The notes under the pieces: generated by a model
Database searches by the model: none
Seen by the model: only the letters and a program-made list of their open reading frames with translations
What the model was told of the DNA's origin: nothing
Made by a program: the position numbers and the translations under genes
In this document: positions 15,283 to 23,388 of the stretch, piece by piece
Layout: each line of letters begins with the position of its first letter
How positions within the stretch are numbered: position 1 is the first letter of the stretch
NCBI GenBank assembly: GCA_902603925.1
Contig: CACKWQ010000007.1
Location: 1-41,729 of the forward strand
Direction of reading: 5' to 3'
Origin: an uncultured Pelagibacteraceae bacterium
Lineage (GTDB): Bacteria; Pseudomonadota; Alphaproteobacteria; Pelagibacterales; Pelagibacteraceae
Length of the DNA stretch: 41,729 bases

Positions 15283-16428
15283 ATGGGTAAAATTTATACA
15301 GTATTAGGTTTAATGAGTGGGACCTCAATGGATGGGGTAGATGCTTCAATCATAAAATCTGATGGTAATACCGAATATTCTTCGGAATTGGATAAATACT
15401 TTGAATATGACAAAGATCTAATAAAAAAACTATCAAACATCAGATTTAAGATCACAATAGCTGATGACTTGAAAAGGATCTCTGAAGAGATTAAAGAGCT
15501 GGAGAGAGAAATTACTTTATTTCATGTTAAAGTGGTAAATGAAATTCTTAATAAATCAGGAGTAGATATTGATTTAATAGGTTTTCATGGACATACGATT
15601 TTCCATGATAGTAATAGAAAAATTTCAATACAACTAGGTGATGGAAAATTAATGTCTCAATTGACTAAAAAAAAAGTTGTCTACAATTTTAGACAAAATG
15701 ATTTACAAAATGGTGGGCAAGGAGCACCTTTAACTCCAATATTTCACAATATGATATCAAATAAAATAGTGGAAAAATTTAAATTAAAATTTCCTATTAA
15801 TTTTTTAAATATAGGAGGAATTGCAAATATCACTTTAATATTAAAAAATGAAAATTTATCAGAACTTAATAAAATTTTTGCACATGATATCGGACCAGGT
15901 AATTGTCTAATTGATGAATGGATGAGAAAAAACTCAAAAGAAAATTTTGATAGTAACGGGCAGTATGCAAAATCAGGAAAAACAGATAACTTAATTTTGA
16001 ATCAGGCTTTCGAAAATTTAAGTGCTAATTTAAATTATGGGAAATCTTTAGATATTAAAGATTTCGATATATTTTTTGCCAAGGGTTTATCATTAGAAGA
16101 TGGGGCATCTACTATTACGGATCTTAGTGCAAAAATTATCGCTGATGGAATTGATTATATTAATAGTAAGAATAATTCTGCACCACTTAGATGTCTAGTG
16201 TGTGGAGGGGGAAGAAAAAATAAATATTTATTAGATAAATTAAAAAATTATTTTAACAAAATGTATATTGAACCAATAGACAACTACGATATTGATGGTG
16301 ATTTTATCGAGTCGCAAGCTTTTGCTTATTTAGCTATTAGATCAATAGAAAATATGCCAATTTCTTTCCCGAGCACGACTAGATGTAATCAGATTTCTAC
16401 GGGCGGGGTCCTAATTGAAAACTTCTAA
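15283..16428 (+). CDS. anmK: Anhydro-N-acetylmuramic acid kinase
   Basis: Phosphorylates and opens 1,6-anhydro-MurNAc released by lytic transglycosylases, recycling cell-wall sugar. 381 aa. Family blocks: GLMSGTSMDGVDASII at the N terminus, GFHGHTIFHD, PINFLNIGGIANITLI, FAHDIGPGNCLIDEW and LVCGGGRKNKYL near the C terminus. Next to tyrS, a pairing seen in other Alphaproteobacteria. Its end overlaps the convergent hydrolase stop by 4 bp. Confidence 0.96.
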   Translation: MGKIYTVLGLMSGTSMDGVDASIIKSDGNTEYSSELDKYFEYDKDLIKKLSNIRFKITIADDLKRISEEIKELEREITLFHVKVVNEILNKSGVDIDLIGFHGHTIFHDSNRKISIQLGDGKLMSQLTKKKVVYNFRQNDLQNGGQGAPLTPIFHNMISNKIVEKFKLKFPINFLNIGGIANITLILKNENLSELNKIFAHDIGPGNCLIDEWMRKNSKENFDSNGQYAKSGKTDNLILNQAFENLSANLNYGKSLDIKDFDIFFAKGLSLEDGASTITDLSAKIIADGIDYINSKNNSAPLRCLVCGGGRKNKYLLDKLKNYFNKMYIEPIDNYDIDGDFIESQAFAYLAIRSIENMPISFPSTTRCNQISTGGVLIENF

Positions 16429-17081
16429 TATAAAGCAGTTTCTTTTTCAATATATCTATTAATTACTTTTGTTAAACTATGATGTGAGTTTGAAAAAAAA
16501 TGATTGGCTTCATTCACTGAGTTAAAGTCCACATTAATTCCTTTTTGTGAACTTAATCTTTTATTTAATTCATTGACATTTTCAAAAGGCACTAATTCAT
16601 CTTTTTTTCCGTGAACTATAATTCCTGAAGTTGGACATGGTGAAAGGAAGGAAAAGTCATAAACATTGGGCTGAGGTGAAATTGCAATGAATCTGTTAAT
16701 TTCGGGTCTACGCATTAGAAGCTGCATAGCAATTAATGATCCAAATGAAAATCCAGCTATCCAACATTGTGAATTGTCAAAATTTTCTCTTTCTACCCAA
16801 TCTAATGCAGCCGCAGCATCAGCCAATTCTCCTTGACCGTTGTCAAATTCTCCATCACTTTTTCCAACACCCCTGAAGTTTACCCTACAAACTGAAAAGT
16901 TATTATCCATAAAGGTGTTAAAAGTTTCAACAACAACTTTATTATTCATTGTTCCCCCGTATTGAGGATGTGGATGCAAAACTAATGCTATTGGAGATGT
17001 ATTCCTTTTACTTTTATAATATTTAGCTTCAAGACGTCCAGCTGGTCCTGGAATAAAAACTTCTGATATTTTTTTGTCCAT
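16425..17081 (-). CDS. Alpha/beta hydrolase, substrate unknown
   Basis: A 218 aa cytoplasmic alpha/beta hydrolase of the small dienelactone-hydrolase-like type often annotated only as alpha/beta hydrolase. The catalytic triad can be placed: S112 in GFSFGS, D161 in HGKKDELVP, H194 in NEANHFF. The oxyanion-loop segment LHPHPQYGGTMNNKV and VNFRGVGKSDGEFD are typical of this subfamily. No signal peptide. The gene stands alone, divergent from the iscR-suf operon. Substrate cannot be told from sequence. Confidence 0.9.
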   Translation of the reverse strand: MDKKISEVFIPGPAGRLEAKYYKSKRNTSPIALVLHPHPQYGGTMNNKVVVETFNTFMDNNFSVCRVNFRGVGKSDGEFDNGQGELADAAAALDWVERENFDNSQCWIAGFSFGSLIAMQLLMRRPEINRFIAISPQPNVYDFSFLSPCPTSGIIVHGKKDELVPFENVNELNKRLSSQKGINVDFNSVNEANHFFSNSHHSLTKVINRYIEKETALY

Positions 17082-17165
17082 AATTGAAATTGATTATCAC
17101 TCTCAAAAAATTAGTTATATTTTTCTATCAAAATAGAGTGACAAAATGCAAGTTTAAAAATTGAT

Positions 17166-17190
17166 AATGTTGACTAAATCAGTCGGGAAT
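17166..17190 (+). promoter_or_regulatory. IscR-type (type 1) operator
   Basis: A 25 bp site centred on an inverted repeat, GACT (17172-17175) and AGTC (17181-17184) separated by 5 bp. It has TTGACT on the left and AGTCGGG on the right, matching the E. coli IscR type 1 consensus at nearly every position of its core and deviating mainly in the outer ATA/TAT ends. It covers the -35 hexamer of the suf promoter, as expected for repression by the Rrf2 regulator encoded directly downstream. Confidence 0.8.
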
Positions 17191-17197
17191 ATATAAA
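17170..17197 (+). promoter_or_regulatory. Sigma-70-type promoter of the iscR-suf operon
   Basis: A -35 element TTGACT (17170-17175), 16 bp spacer, and -10 element TATAAA (17192-17197). Predicted start around 17204, about 17 bp before the regulator's ATG at 17221. The -35 lies inside the IscR-type box. No clear Shine-Dalgarno is seen between -10 and the ATG. Confidence 0.65.
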
Positions 17198-17220
17198 TTA
17201 ACCGCTAAAAACTTTAACTT

Positions 17221-17652
17221 ATGAAGCTTACAACAAAAGGAAGATATGCTGTTATGGCTCTAACAGACCTTGCAAATTATGACTTAAAAGGTCCTGTTTC
17301 GCTTAGAGACATATCTTTAAGACAGAATATTTCTTTAATGTACTTAGAGCAAATATTTTTAAAATTAAAGAAAAATAAAATTGTTATCAGTTCAAGAGGA
17401 ATTAAAGGTGGTTATAAACTTTCTAGGGCCCCATCAAATATTAAATTATCAGAAATATTGTTTGCTGTTGATGAAAAAATTAAAACTGTGAAATGCAATA
17501 AGTTTCTTAAAAAGGGATGTAATGGTAAATCGATAAAATGTAATACACATCATCTTTGGGATGAATTGGAGATTTATATAAACTCTTTCTTTGAGAATAA
17601 ATATTTGAGTGATTTAAATAGAAATAGAAAATTTGAGGTAGTTACAAAATGA
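17221..17652 (+). CDS. iscR: Rrf2-family Fe-S-sensing regulator, IscR-like
   Basis: A 143 aa transcription factor with an N-terminal winged helix ([18 protein letters not shown]; recognition region around [17 protein letters not shown]; wing [13 protein letters not shown]). Candidate [2Fe-2S] ligands are C92, C100, C107 and H110; E. coli IscR uses C92, C98, C104 and H107, so the order is kept with slightly longer loops. Given the operator on its own promoter and the suf genes behind it, it very likely represses the operon when Fe-S clusters are sufficient. It overlaps sufB by ATGA (coupling). The symbol is by orthology of role and ligands. Confidence 0.88.
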
Positions 17653-19085
17653 GAGAAAAAGAAATTGATAAGCTTAAAGATTATAAGTATGGTTTTACTA
17701 CCGATATAGAAAATATTAAATCACCTAAAGGTCTTTCTGAAAATACGATTAAATTTATATCAAAAGCAAAAAATGAACCGGAATGGATGTTGAAATGGAG
17801 ATTAAGTGCTTTTGAAAGATTACAAAAAATACAAGAACCAAATTGGCAAAAACCAAAATATCCTAAAATAAATTATCAAGATCTTTACTACTATTCTGCG
17901 CCTAAAACAACACAATCAAAAGTTAAGAATTTAAGTGATCTAGATCCAAAAATTTTAGATACATACAAAAAGTTGGGCATACCTTTAGACGAACAAAAGA
18001 AATTAAATGGAATAGCTGTAGATGCAGTATTTGACTCCGTTTCTGTCGCTACAACTTTTAAAGATACTTTATCAAAAGTTGGGGTAATTTTTTGTTCAAT
18101 ATCAGAAGCTATTCAGAAACACCCAGAGCTAGTTAAAAAGTATTTAGGATCAGTAATACCCATTAGTGATCATTTTTTTGCAACTTTAAACTCAGCTGTA
18201 TTCACGGATGGCTCATTTGTTTATATACCCGAGGGTGTAAAATGTCCGATGGAGTTATCAACTTATTTTAGAATAAATGCATCACAAACTGGTCAATTTG
18301 AAAGAACATTGATTATTGCTGATAAAAATAGTTATGTAAGTTATTTGGAGGGTTGTACAGCCCCGATGAGAGATGAAAATCAATTACATGCTGCAAATGT
18401 CGAATTAGTTGCTCTAGAAGGAGCTGAAATTAAATATTCAACAGTCCAAAATTGGTATCCAGGAGATGAAAATGGTAAAGGAGGAATATACAATTTTGTT
18501 ACTAAGAGGGGTTTATGCAAAGGTGACAACTCTAAGATATCTTGGACACAGGTAGAGACAGGATCCTCTATAACTTGGAAATACCCAAGCTGTATTTTAA
18601 AAGGTGACAATTCAGTCGGGGAATTTTATTCAATAGCAATAACTAATAATCATCAAAAAGCCGATACTGGAACTAAAATGATTCATATTGGTAAAAATAC
18701 GAAAAGTAAAATAATATCAAAAGGTATCTCAGCTGGTAAAGCTGACAATACTTATCGAGGGCTTGTCGATATATTTCCTAATGCAAAAAATTCGCAAAAT
18801 TATACTCAGTGTGACTCCTTACTTATGGGCAACAGATGTGGAGCACATACAATTCCATATATTAAAAATAGAAACTCAGATTCTAATATCGCACATGAAG
18901 CAACAACTTCAAAAATTAGTGAAGACCAATTATTTTATTGTCAACAAAGAGGATTAAATTCCGAAGAAGCAGTTAGTTTAATAGTTAACGGTTTCTGCAA
19001 GGAAGTCCTACAACAACTCCCCATGGAGTTTGCTGTTGAAGCTCAAAAACTTGTAGGAATTAGTTTAGAGGGAAGTGTGGGCTAA
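17649..19085 (+). CDS. sufB: Fe-S cluster assembly scaffold SufB
   Basis: Core scaffold of the SufBC2D complex on which new Fe-S clusters are built. 478 aa, usual length. Recognised by the N-terminal [30 protein letters not shown], the beta-helix core ([49 protein letters not shown]) and C-terminal [20 protein letters not shown]. Coupled at both ends: ATGA with the regulator and TAATG with sufC. Confidence 0.98.
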
Positions 19086-19816
19086 TGTTAGAAATTAGTG
19101 ATTTAAAAGCAAGCATTGATGATAAATTCATTTTAAACGGATTGAATTTATCGATTAATCAAGGAGAGGTTCATGCTTTAATGGGACCAAATGGGTCTGG
19201 AAAGAGCACTTTATCAAATATATTATCTGGAAAAAAGGGTTACGAGGTATCAGGAAAAATATCCTATGAGAAAGAAAATTTATTTGACCTTGAAATAGAA
19301 GAGAGAGCCCATAAAGGACTATTTCTTGCTTTTCAATATCCACTAGAAATTCCTGGAGTAAATAATAACAATTTTTTAAAAACTTCACTTAACGCTATTA
19401 AAAAAGCAAAAGGAGAAAAAGAACTTGATGCGCTTGAGTTTTTAAAACTAATAAAACAAAAAGCAAAAGATTTAAAATTTGACGAAAAAAATTTAAATAG
19501 ACAACTCAATGTAGGTTTTTCAGGTGGTGAAAAGAAAAAGAATGAAATTTTGCAAATGTCAGTTTTAAAACCAAAACTATCTATACTTGACGAAACAGAC
19601 TCAGGACTAGATATAGATGCACTAAAAATAGTTTCTGATGGTGTAAACTCTTTAAGAGATAAAAATAATTCATTTTTAATCATAACTCACTACCAAAGAC
19701 TTTTACAATATATAAAACCTGATTTTGTACACGTTTTAATGAATGGTAAAATTGTAAAATCAGGAAAGGCGGAATTAGCTCTTGAACTTGAGGAGAAAGG
19801 TTACGAAAATATTTAG
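19085..19816 (+). CDS. sufC: Fe-S assembly ATPase SufC
   Basis: ABC-type soluble ATPase of the SufBC2D complex. 243 aa. Walker A GPNGSGKSTL (about 34-43), the SufC-typical signature GFSGGEKKKNEILQM, Walker B LSILDETDSGLDIDAL, and switch His in ITHYQRLL. No membrane segments, so not a transporter ATPase. Start shares one base with the sufB stop. Confidence 0.98.
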   Translation: MLEISDLKASIDDKFILNGLNLSINQGEVHALMGPNGSGKSTLSNILSGKKGYEVSGKISYEKENLFDLEIEERAHKGLFLAFQYPLEIPGVNNNNFLKTSLNAIKKAKGEKELDALEFLKLIKQKAKDLKFDEKNLNRQLNVGFSGGEKKKNEILQMSVLKPKLSILDETDSGLDIDALKIVSDGVNSLRDKNNSFLIITHYQRLLQYIKPDFVHVLMNGKIVKSGKAELALELEEKGYENI

Positions 19817-21072
19817 TGATGCAAAATTTAAAAAATATAAAAATTGAGGATGTAAGTTATTTAGGTAATTTGACTAATGAAGAAAAGACTTTTAGAAAAA
19901 AAAATCTTTCAGATTTTCAAACTCATGGTTTTCCATCCAAAAAAAATGAAGAATGGAGATTTATTGACCTAAATAGTCTATTATTAAAAAACTCCTCAAA
20001 ACTAGAATTAATTTCAAAAAATTTAGTTAATGACAAAATAATAGATAATATCCTTAGAACTTTTCCGATTGATCTGTCTGATAAAAATTATATTTTAAGT
20101 GTTGACGGATTTATAAAAAAGATCGAAATTAAACACGAAGAAAAAAATTGTTATAAAATTGAAAGATCCGTTGATATAAATAAGCTTTCCTCAAAAGACC
20201 CACTAGAATGTTTAAACAATGCTCTAAACACCGATTACATAAAATTAATTATTAATGAGAATTATTCATTTAATAAGCCCTTGGTTATTCTAAATTACTC
20301 AAATGAGTTAATGAATTCTGTAAGTCTAAACCAAAAATTTGATATTAGTATAAATAAAAATTCAAAATTGAGTTTAATAAATTTTTATAATTATAAATCA
20401 AAAAAAAGTTTTTATAATTTTCATCAATATTATTTTCTGCATGAAGGATCAATTCTTAAAAATTATAGTATAGATTTGTCAGATAATTCAAACTTAAACT
20501 ATATTAAAACTAATATTGACTTGTCCAAAAACAGCATATCAGAAAATTTTATAATTACTCAAGGAAGTGAATATTCAAAAAACGAGATAAGTTGTAATTT
20601 AATTGAACCGTATAGTTCGGCATTCGTAAATGGAATTATAAACTTAAATAATCAAAAAAAGCACGAAATTAGAAGTAAAATAAATCATATCGCACCTAAC
20701 ACTAAAAGTTACCAATTAATTAAGTGCATTTTAAGTGAAAACTCGAAGGCTGTTTATCAGGGTAAAATTTTTGTAGATAAAGAAGCTCAAAAAACGGACG
20801 GTTATCAGTTAAGTAAAGCAATCTTATTAAATCAAAATACCGAATTTAATGCAAAGCCCGAACTAGAAATTTATGCGGATGACGTGAAATGCTCTCATGG
20901 TTCATCATCTGGCAGTTTAGATGATAATAAAATATTTTATTTAATGACAAGAGGGCTTAATAAAAATCAATCTAAAAAATTGTTAATTGATGGTTTTATA
21001 TTGGATGTATTAGACAAAATCACAGATATATCTGTTAAAAAAATTGTAAAGAATATTTTAGGAATTAATTAA
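19816..21072 (+). CDS. sufD: Fe-S assembly scaffold SufD
   Basis: Partner of SufB in the SufBC2D complex. 418 aa from a GTG overlapping the sufC stop, or 417 aa from the ATG at 19819; the sequence does not decide between them. Divergent N-terminal half; the C-terminal beta-helix is conserved: GKIFVDKEAQKTDGYQLSKA, LEIYADDVKCSHGSSSGSLD with the conserved Cys and His, then FYLMTRGLNKNQSKKLLIDGF. The Lys/Asn-rich N-terminal half fits the base composition of the window. Confidence 0.95.
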   Translation: MMQNLKNIKIEDVSYLGNLTNEEKTFRKKNLSDFQTHGFPSKKNEEWRFIDLNSLLLKNSSKLELISKNLVNDKIIDNILRTFPIDLSDKNYILSVDGFIKKIEIKHEEKNCYKIERSVDINKLSSKDPLECLNNALNTDYIKLIINENYSFNKPLVILNYSNELMNSVSLNQKFDISINKNSKLSLINFYNYKSKKSFYNFHQYYFLHEGSILKNYSIDLSDNSNLNYIKTNIDLSKNSISENFIITQGSEYSKNEISCNLIEPYSSAFVNGIINLNNQKKHEIRSKINHIAPNTKSYQLIKCILSENSKAVYQGKIFVDKEAQKTDGYQLSKAILLNQNTEFNAKPELEIYADDVKCSHGSSSGSLDDNKIFYLMTRGLNKNQSKKLLIDGFILDVLDKITDISVKKIVKNILGIN

Positions 21073-21073
21073 T

Positions 21074-22291
21074 ATGGATATAGAAAATATAAAAAAAGAA
21101 TTTCCCATATTTAACAACAAGGTACAGAATAATGATTTAGTTTATCTAGATAGTGCCAACTCGTCACAAAAACCGTTGGTAGTCATTGATAGAATTTATG
21201 ATTTTTATACCAAAGAATTTTCAAATGTTGGTAGAAGTGTACATTACTTGGCTGTAGCAGCAACCAACTTATATGAGAATACTAGAACTTCTGTACAAAA
21301 ATATATTAATGCAAAGGAAAAAAATGAGATAGTTTTTACTAAAGGAGCTACAGAGGCAATTAATTTAGTTGCAAATACATTTGGCCAAAAATATTTAAGC
21401 AAAGGTGATGAAGTATTATTAACAGAGCTTGAACATCATTCTAACTATGTACCATGGCACTATCTTAGAAAATCTAAAGGAGTTAATATCATATTTGCCG
21501 AAACAAATGAGGATGGAGATATTTCAATAGAAAGTATAGAAAAAAAAATTACGGAAAAAACTAAAATAATTGCTCTTACACATCTATCAAATGTGACAGG
21601 CGCTATATTGCCAATTAAGGAAATAACAAAATTAGCTCACTCAAAGAATATTCCAGTATTAATAGATGGATGTCAAAGCGCCCCTCATATGAAACTTGAT
21701 ATGCAAGATCTTGACTGTGATTTCTACGCAATTTCTTGTCACAAAATGTATGGACCTACAGGACTTGGCATACTATATGCAAAAAAAAAATGGTTAGAGG
21801 ATCTACCTCCCTACCAAGGCGGCGGAGGAATGATTAATGAAGTTAAAAAGGAAGATATAAGTTACGGTAATTTACCAAATAAATTTGAGGCAGGGACTAT
21901 GGCTACAGCACAAGTAATTGCATTCGATGAGTCAATTAAGTTTCTTAATAAAATAGGAATAGAAAGCTTGATTAAACACGAAAATGAATTGTTGCAGTAC
22001 GGTGAAGAAATTTTGAGAAAGAATAACTCTGTAAAATTAATCGGGAATCCAAAAAATAAAGGTGCCGTTTTATCATTTACAATTGATGGAATTCATCCAC
22101 ATGACATTGCTACAATTTTAGATGAGGATGGAGTTGCAATCAGGGCCGGACATCATTGTTGTCAAATACTTCACGATAAATTGGGATTGTCTGCTTCAGC
22201 AAGAGCATCATTAGGGGTATATAATACTAAAGATGATCTAGATAAGTTAAACGCATCAATTAATAATTGTAAAAAAATATTTAGTAGATAA
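21074..22291 (+). CDS. sufS: Cysteine desulfurase SufS
   Basis: PLP enzyme (group II NifS/CsdB type) that extracts sulfur from cysteine for cluster assembly. 405 aa. PLP lysine K224 in SCHKMYGPTGLG; catalytic cysteine C362 in RAGHHC, followed by an extra Cys where most homologues have Ala; ELEHHSNYVPW and IDGCQSAPHM are typical. Starts 1 bp after sufD and shares one base with sufU. Confidence 0.97.
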   Translation: MDIENIKKEFPIFNNKVQNNDLVYLDSANSSQKPLVVIDRIYDFYTKEFSNVGRSVHYLAVAATNLYENTRTSVQKYINAKEKNEIVFTKGATEAINLVANTFGQKYLSKGDEVLLTELEHHSNYVPWHYLRKSKGVNIIFAETNEDGDISIESIEKKITEKTKIIALTHLSNVTGAILPIKEITKLAHSKNIPVLIDGCQSAPHMKLDMQDLDCDFYAISCHKMYGPTGLGILYAKKKWLEDLPPYQGGGGMINEVKKEDISYGNLPNKFEAGTMATAQVIAFDESIKFLNKIGIESLIKHENELLQYGEEILRKNNSVKLIGNPKNKGAVLSFTIDGIHPHDIATILDEDGVAIRAGHHCCQILHDKLGLSASARASLGVYNTKDDLDKLNASINNCKKIFSR

Positions 22292-22752
22292 TGAATTTAA
22301 AGGAATTATATCAAGAAATCATATTAGATCATGGAAAAAATCCAAGGAATATTGGAAAATTTGAAAATTTTAATAAAGATGCAAAAGGACATAATCCATT
22401 ATGTGGGGATAAAGTTCATTTATTTTTAAAACTAGATGAAAATAAGCAAATAAGCGATATATCATTTGAAGGAGAAGGATGTGCTATTTCTATGGCGTCT
22501 GCCTCAATAATGACTGATTTAATGAAAGGAAAAAAGGAGGAGGAAGTTAAAGAAATTGCTTCAAAGTTTTTAGATATGATTAAAGAAAAGGATGATATAA
22601 AAACTAATTTAGTTAGTGATGATCAAAAAACAAAATTAATGAGCTTAGGTGGTGTGAAAAATTACCCAATGAGAGTAAAATGTGCTACATTATCATGGCA
22701 TGCTTTGTTATCTGCTTTAGATGATTTTCAAAAAGAAGTAAGTACAGAGTGA
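22291..22752 (+). CDS. sufU: SufU-type sulfur acceptor / Fe-S assembly protein
   Basis: A 153 aa IscU-fold protein. It carries the SufU ligand set C38 and D40 (HNPLCGDKV), C64 (GEGCAIS) and C131 (RVKCATLSWHAL), and the SufU-typical insertion between the second and third cysteines. In Gram-positive bacteria SufU is a zinc protein that takes sulfur from SufS. It lacks the LPPVK chaperone-binding motif of IscU, supporting SufU over IscU. No sufE is present in the operon, so it likely fills that role. Confidence 0.88.
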   Translation: MNLKELYQEIILDHGKNPRNIGKFENFNKDAKGHNPLCGDKVHLFLKLDENKQISDISFEGEGCAISMASASIMTDLMKGKKEEEVKEIASKFLDMIKEKDDIKTNLVSDDQKTKLMSLGGVKNYPMRVKCATLSWHALLSALDDFQKEVSTE

Positions 22753-22759
22753 TTTTTAA

Positions 22760-23056
22760 ATGGAACTAAAAGAGAAAATTATTGGAGAGATTAAAAAAAT
22801 ATATGATCCTGAAATCCCGGTGAACATCTATGAGTTAGGATTGATATATGACATAAATGTTAATAAAAAATCTGTTAACATTAAAATGACATTGACAACC
22901 CCAAATTGTCCTGTAGCAGAAAGTTTACCAAAAGAGGTTAAAGATAGTGTGATGCAATTGGATGAAATTGAAAAAGTTGAACTAGATCTTGTTTGGGATC
23001 CTCCATGGAATAAATCTATGATGTCAGAAGCAGCAAAATTGGAGTTAAATTTGTGA
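22760..23056 (+). CDS. DUF59 (MIP18/SufT-like) Fe-S maturation protein
   Basis: A 98 aa single-domain DUF59 protein with IYDPEIPVNIYELGLIYDI near the N terminus, the conserved Cys in TTPNCPVAESLP, and VWDPPWNKSMMSEAAK at the end. Relatives (SufT, the MIP18 family) help deliver Fe-S clusters to target proteins. Embedded in the suf operon; its TGA overlaps the GTG start of the next gene (GTGA). Confidence 0.92.
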   Translation: MELKEKIIGEIKKIYDPEIPVNIYELGLIYDINVNKKSVNIKMTLTTPNCPVAESLPKEVKDSVMQLDEIEKVELDLVWDPPWNKSMMSEAAKLELNL

Positions 23057-23388
23057 GTAATCAAGTTATTAAATTAAGCGAAAATGCAGCTTTAAGAATT
23101 AAGGAAATCATGTCCAAAGCTGAAAAAGATTCAATAGGCGTAAGAGTTGGAGTTAAATCTGGTGGTTGCGCAGGTATGTCATATATAATGGAATATGCCA
23201 AAACCTCAAAGCCTGAAGACGAAGTTATAGAAGACAAAGGAGTTAAACTATTTATAGATCCATCCGCAATAATTTATTTAATTGGGACAGTAATGGATTA
23301 CAAAAAAGATGAATTCTCTTCATCGTTTATTTTTAAAAACCCAAACGAAACAGAAAGATGTGGTTGCGGTGAATCTTTTAAGATCTAA
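23053..23388 (+). CDS. sufA: A-type Fe-S carrier protein (SufA/IscA/HesB family)
   Basis: A 111 aa A-type carrier that passes clusters from the scaffold to apoproteins. The three ligand cysteines are visible: VKSGGCAGMSY and the C-terminal RCGCGESF. GTG start overlapping the preceding TGA. Last gene of the operon, ending 3 bp from the convergent glnA stop. Whether it is functionally SufA or ErpA-like cannot be settled; the symbol follows operon position. Confidence 0.93.
   Translation: MSNQVIKLSENAALRIKEIMSKAEKDSIGVRVGVKSGGCAGMSYIMEYAKTSKPEDEVIEDKGVKLFIDPSAIIYLIGTVMDYKKDEFSSSFIFKNPNETERCGCGESFKI

Follow-up and report, generated by a model that had tools for sequence, protein, structure and literature searches.

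How do SAR11 bacteria, which are among the most abundant bacteria of the ocean, live at very low iron and carry few regulators, control the building of their Fe-S clusters? The question is raised by a 41,729-base stretch of DNA (hereafter the window) from an uncultured Pelagibacteraceae bacterium, in which a palindrome overlaps the predicted -35 element of the Fe-S biogenesis operon iscR-suf. Behind this promoter the genes run iscR-sufBCDS-sufU-sufT-like-sufA (Table 1). Judged from sequence, the best explanation of the palindrome, and in our view a highly probable one, is that it is the IscR operator of the iscR-suf operon, through which holo-IscR would repress its own transcription. The locus would then be a well-supported SAR11 instance of Fe-S feedback of the E. 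coli type, a circuit that is already known.

Table 1. Features of the iscR-suf locus, in window coordinates
Feature	Position	Strand	Basis or remark
Divergent alpha/beta hydrolase	16425-17081	-	kept beside the operon in both families
Pair of overlapping Fur-box-like palindromes (7-1-7), close before the hydrolase start	17085-17105	.	pattern and conservation
IscR type 1-like operator (putative), 25-bp frame	17166-17190	+	3 mismatches to E. coli type 1 consensus; family conservation at about -50
Core palindrome GACTAAATCAGTC of the operator	17172-17184	+	read from sequence
-35 element TTGACT, inside the operator	17170-17175	+	sequence; TTGAC 100% in 76 sites (preset by their selection)
-10 element TATAAA, spacer 16	17192-17197	+	sequence; columns 22-27 conserved in 76 sites
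iscR-like Rrf2 regulator, 143 aa, Cys3His1	17221-17652	+	ATG at 17221; profile and alignment
sufB, 4-nt overlap with iscR	17649-19085	+	ORF and profile
sufC	19085-19816	+	ORF and profile
sufD	19816-21072	+	212.7 bits, cut-off 222
sufS	21074-22291	+	ORF and profile
sufU / NifU-like	22291-22752	+	ORF and profile
SUF-associated, sufT-like, 'paaD'	22760-23056	+	ORF and profile
sufA-like A-type carrier, 'hesB'	23053-23388	+	ORF and profile

A type 1-like palindrome over the iscR-suf promoter

Read directly, positions 17170-17187 are TTGACT-AAATC-AGTCGGG, in which the half-sites GACT (17172-17175) and AGTC (17181-17184) enclose the five-base spacer AAATC (17176-17180) and are followed by GGG (17185-17187). 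A preliminary description of this DNA had taken GACT-N5-AGTC, with TTGACT on the left and GGG on the right, for a type 1 IscR box, and comparison with E. coli bears this out. The operator matches 22 of the 25 positions of the E. coli type 1 consensus, which reportedly goes back to Giel et al. 2006, and it has the palindromic form GACT-RWWWY-AGTC with YY/RR flanks. When the genome of E. coli MG1655 was compared, its iscR gene proved to have two upstream boxes, CCGACTAAATCAGTCAAG and GTTGACCAATTTACTCGGGAAT. The inner 13 bases of the first are those of the window, and the second has the window's flanks.

This likeness is specific within the window. The type 1 consensus has a single match in the 41,729 bases, which is the operator itself with its 3 mismatches, and none of 100 dinucleotide shuffles of the window contained any match. 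In the whole 843-kb assembly there is one copy of the 18-base core TTGACYNNNNNRGTCRRG and none of the reversed control pattern. With 2 mismatches allowed, the core was found 6 times in the window against 4.15 expected, which is not significant, so the specificity rests on the exact core together with its conservation. The type 2 IscR box AWARCCCYTSnGTTTGMnGKKKTKWA, taken from the available text of PMC11475020, is not matched anywhere in the window, even with 3 mismatches allowed.

Because the operator covers the -35 element and the spacer, an IscR dimer sitting there would shut out RNA polymerase. The predicted cycle has two states. With Fe-S clusters in ample supply, IscR carrying [2Fe-2S] would bind the box as a dimer and block the access of polymerase. 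Under iron shortage or cluster damage, apo-IscR would leave the box, and the freed promoter would transcribe the whole operon, iscR included, at a higher rate. Such a circuit would be a negative feedback loop, apparently with a single type 1 target.

The 76 best family sites, which have 1 mismatch or none, were selected by a pattern that contains TTGAC, which presets the full conservation of that motif. The -10 columns (22-27) lie outside the selecting pattern and are 67-100% conserved in these sites, at the 16-base spacing. The sigma-70 scan lists a 9-of-12 version of the promoter with an 18-nt spacer; cross-species conservation supports the predicted version with TATAAA and a 16-base spacer. 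The box had earlier been described as lying on the -35 of a good promoter. The overlap stands, but taken alone the promoter is unremarkable: the 7 sigma-70-like matches found in 801 bases are near chance, as shuffles average 4.0 (sd 1.8).

These figures bear on a different account of the site, in which only a promoter is present, conserved for its -35 TTGACT and its -10, and the palindrome is a by-product. The near-consensus TTGACT and the near-chance level of sigma-70-like matches in the region favour this account, to which we nonetheless assign a very low probability. AGTCRGG, which includes the right half-site, is conserved within the spacer, and there promoter function by itself calls for no sequence. 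Moreover, in a sister family the box has shifted along with the start of the operon, and genomes without IscR lack the box, yet their sufB needs transcription.

Conservation and joint absence of box and regulator

The regulator proposed to bind the operator is an IscR-like protein. Its Rrf2 winged-helix domain scores 109.7 bits with PF02082 (cut-off 30), and a PDB sequence search matched it to the E. coli IscR structure 4hf1 (E 1.1e-26). The best Rrf2 subfamily model is IscR (TIGR02010) at 152.2 bits, under that model's cut-off of 207.55; a second IscR model, NF008110, gives 125.6 bits of the 275 required, and the CymR, RirA and NsrR models give 79.2, 34.8 and 21.8 bits. The three Cys and one His previously noted in IscR order do align with the E. 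coli ligands, in 156 of 156 proteins, with a C-x7-C-x6-C-x2-H spacing that is longer than in E. coli. In E. coli numbers, Cys92, Cys98, Cys104, His107, Glu43 and Leu42 are matched in all 156 (138 distinct), Gln44 in 155, and Arg59 in 139, with Lys in 17. The window protein has Glu43 and Gln44 of the recognition helix. For binding to type 2 sites, the available text of PMC11475020 gives position 40, Tyr41, Glu43, Gln44 and Arg59 as critical. One Rrf2 gene is present in the window's own 843-kb assembly, whose completeness is only 63%.

Position 40, a DNA contact, is Ser in E. coli and Met in the window, and varies across the family. This residue and the operator base after AGT co-vary in 134 of 136 distinct proteins. 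We treat the covariation as no more than a lead: on the tree the two traits change just 2 and 3 times, with 2 independent pairs and a median p of 0.5, which is not significant. E. coli, with Ser40 and C, is a counter-example to the pairing.

Most relatives in the family carry the box within a narrow range of positions. Of the 171 loci analysed, 162 matched iscR and 160 gave a start that could be used; 19 of the 160 belong to the sister family (f2), and the other 141 have upstream stretches of 130 bases or more, which amount to 132 distinct regions. With the family pattern TTGACYNNNNNRGTMRGG, which was set after the relatives had been seen, the box is found at 2 or fewer mismatches in 100 of the 132 distinct regions (0 in 61, 1 in 15, 2 in 24; a further 10 have 3, 18 have 4 and 4 have 5). 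The reversed pattern and shuffled sequence each give 0 of 132 at this threshold, and 14 and 9 at 3 mismatches. The 110 family sites within 3 mismatches all fall between -41 and -55 relative to iscR. In other genera the site is degenerate: 22 regions have 4-5 mismatches, a count no better than in the controls, though with a degenerate half-palindrome at -52/-53. Conservation before iscR in SAR11 relatives, the check that the preliminary description had proposed for its reading, was thus observed, and not the lack of conservation that it had named as refuting.

An alignment of 51 distinct upstream regions from the window's genus, picked independently of the box, gives the same picture: mean identity is 0.90 over 17168-17187 versus 0.73 outside 17166-17200. 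The right half-site reads AGTC mainly in the window's genus, and AGTA or AGTG in other genera and in the sister family.

The sister family has a different operon start. At all 19 of its loci (L026-L044) the gene row is hydrolase, cysE (serine acetyltransferase), iscR; the cysE product of L028 scores 214.1 bits with NF041874 and 209.1 with TIGR01172, just under the cut-off of 210.65. The box lies about 84 bases upstream of cysE in 19 of 19, with 1 mismatch to TTGACTNNNNNAGTCRGGT in 1 locus, 2 in 17 and 3 in 1, compared with 3-5 for the reversed pattern. These loci are close relatives, so the 19 are not independent. The box appears to track the start of the operon rather than iscR itself. Divergent linkage of the alpha/beta hydrolase to the suf operon is kept in both families of the order.

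Where the regulator is missing, the box is missing too. A whole-genome search of two genera (g5 and g7) gave no Rrf2 match in 6 of 6 genomes that are 95-100% complete. There, sufB adjoins the same divergent hydrolase. At their best match to the box within 900 bases upstream of sufB, four of these genomes have 4 mismatches and two have 3; the 3-mismatch matches fall within the hydrolase gene and at the start of sufB. The 80 named loci comprise 71 with iscR, 8 without, and 1 on a contig that ends too early. In eight loci (L146-L153), the isolate HIMB114 among them, hydrolase and sufB are neighbours without iscR in 8 of 8, and over the 300 bases upstream of sufB none has a match to the box with fewer than 4 mismatches. 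The group that lacks both iscR and box, with the hydrolase beside sufB, consists of L104, L105, L135-L138 and L146-L153. At four Fonsibacter-type loci, two bearing that name and two from single-cell genomes with similar sequence, iscR is retained together with a box of 1 mismatch. HIMB114 belongs to SAR11 clade IIIa, and Fonsibacter is its freshwater relative. The loss of iscR and box together may be one evolutionary event. The earlier claim that the feedback is conserved in SAR11 thus holds for most genomes of the family, which have the box, but not universally, since the group that includes HIMB114 lost it.

An iscR match is missing from other genomes as well. A search of 248 genomes left 27 without an iscR match, 20 of which are listed. 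In 18 listed genomes of the window's genus sufB is also missing or partial, and we therefore read the absent iscR as an assembly gap. Genome G253 is likewise without sufB, and two genomes of the sister family (G050 and G054) have no iscR match. A search of 61 genomes left 18 without a match, mostly genomes of low completeness.

One further element was seen in the hydrolase-suf intergenic region of L146-L157. A CTTATAnCA block is conserved in HIMB114-type and Fonsibacter-type loci alike, and is perhaps the promoter of the hydrolase on the opposite strand.

Fur-like palindromes and the search for other targets

Apart from the IscR box, the intergenic region has a second conservation peak. The best 20-nt window of the whole region, at 17093-17112 (0.92), overlaps a pair of Fur-like palindromes, one at 17085-17099 with 2 mismatches and the other at 17091-17105 with 3; the latter is the place aligned with the relatives' Fur-like site. 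Among 134 distinct family regions, 102 are within 2 mismatches of the 7-1-7 box TGATAATNATTATCA; with the pattern reversed, none of the 134 comes that close.

Could the palindrome over the promoter then be the operator of another iron regulator, Fur or Irr? Both are reported in Ca. P. ubique (PMC2864753, available text), and the Fur-like palindrome stands in the same intergenic region. We find this most improbable even so: the box resembles the E. coli type 1 IscR sites and not the 7-1-7 Fur box, it precedes the iscR operon itself, and it is missing where IscR is missing.

An extension of the IscR reading, in which suf output depends on IscR at the box and also on Fur at about 17085-17105, is possible, though we lean against it. 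The overlap of the top conservation window with the Fur-like site and the 102 of 134 against 0 of 134 speak for it, as do exact Fur-type boxes in the hydrolase-iscR region of two genomes, G062 and, twice in tandem, G069 (L277, L278, L279). On the other side, the site abuts the hydrolase start, about 70 bases from the suf -35, and so may serve the hydrolase alone. It is also absent from the sister family, where all 19 loci show 5-6 mismatches in the hydrolase-cysE intergenic stretch, and is lacking at HIMB114-type and Fonsibacter-type loci too (at least 4 mismatches).

Some exact boxes, moreover, fall within genes (L267, L268, L273). The exact pattern TGATAATNATTMTCA, searched in 10 genomes including the window's own, has matches in 7, at 14 loci, and its reversed control has 2 matches in 1 genome. 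Other exact boxes lie near gene starts (L274, L276) and, in 4 genomes, before ABC-binding-protein-like genes (1 of 4 proteins tested). In the available text of PMC4771312, SAR11 Fur boxes are reported in front of genes for Fe3+ transporter and FTR1, and IscR is not mentioned. In the window's own genome an exact box (G000:C26:1119-1133, L272) lies between a gene that looks hemB-like by eye and a divergent gene, and in a relative (L280) an exact box again lies beside a gene that is hemB-like by eye.

Returning to IscR, scans for further type 1 sites recover mainly the one before iscR. With the strict pattern, most of the matches listed in 61 and in 248 genomes sit, by eye, about 50 bases from iscR. 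A sister-family match, TTGACTTTTAGAGTC or TTGACTTTTTGAGTC (L045-L052), was rejected as a target: it lies inside a long open frame, metK-like by eye, in all 5 loci examined out of the 8. A relaxed 21-mer found the iscR site in 8 of 8 genomes; one further match (L236) is one of these eight sites read on the other strand. Two extras were rejected, one straddling a gene end (L234) and one within a gene (L235), and the control gave 4. Among the matches listed, the strict and relaxed scans support no second type 1 target in SAR11. Within the stringency of these scans, this suggests a one-target autoregulator and not a global regulator.

Outside SAR11 the box is rare in the small sample compared. E. 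coli IscR has a match in 252 of 289 class-level alphaproteobacterial genomes, and the box was sought in the 250 bases before iscR at the best 30 of the 252 loci, a sample that is mostly GC-rich. One distant alphaproteobacterium (L266) has a 1-mismatch type 1-like box at -158 from iscR, and another locus (L250) a 2-mismatch box at the edge of its stretch. The other 28 of the best 30 have 3-5 mismatches, as does the reversed control in 30 of 30.

We tentatively propose a minimal Fe-S thermostat for SAR11, a model that we advance with more doubt than conviction: IscR, formerly a global regulator, would have been reduced to an autorepressor of one operon, this autorepressor and a Fur box in the same intergenic region would read cluster demand and iron supply at one locus, and HIMB114-type bacteria would have dropped the cluster-sensing arm together with its operator.

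Iron limitation in Ca. P. ubique and comparison with known systems

Published expression data describe an operon of the same kind. In the available text of PMC2864753, the Ca. P. ubique genes SAR11_0738-0745, eight genes that we liken to the window operon by gene order and gene kinds, rise 1.76- to 2.44-fold under siderophore-imposed iron limitation, with a P of 0.062 for the first gene. That text labels this first gene a transcriptional regulator, the term 'IscR' is absent from its main text as available, and sufA-E mRNA is reported up in iron-limited cells, suf protein not. The operator would offer a mechanism for the suf rise. We found no literature pairing IscR with HIMB114. HIMB114-like strains amount to a natural mutant without regulator and site, and this lineage-specific loss and the possible Fur partner are the parts worth following.

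The closest parallel is the E. coli iscR promoter. There, according to the available text of PMC8262890, type I sites are the ones that holo-IscR favours, and it is through them that it represses iscR. E. coli and SAR11 share the GACT-N5-AGTC palindrome, with the 13-mer identical in one E. coli box and the GTTGAC...TCGGGAAT flanks in the other, and in both the regulator heads the operon that the palindrome precedes. They differ in that E. coli has two boxes and isc genes, whereas SAR11 has one box and suf genes, and in that the SAR11 scans found no other type 1 target among the matches listed.

A second parallel comes from the Enterobacteriaceae, where cysE is a candidate of type I IscR control (PMC8262890, available text). 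As there, cysE and iscR stand under a type 1-like box in the SAR11 sister family; the difference is that cysE lies within the iscR-suf row, behind a single box.

Other Alphaproteobacteria share the operon more than the site. Caulobacter likewise has iscR in a single Fe-S operon, isc-suf, induced by iron starvation, and its IscR ligands are given as Cys95-Cys105-Cys112-His115; unlike SAR11, it has its own reported motifs, and the site at its isc promoter bears little resemblance to its type II motif (PMC11475020, available text). Rhodobacter IscR also heads an isc-suf operon and represses when cluster-bound, but with a single Cys ligation and through a 19-bp palindrome, the Iron-Rhodo-box, that serves many iron genes (PMC4618611, available text).
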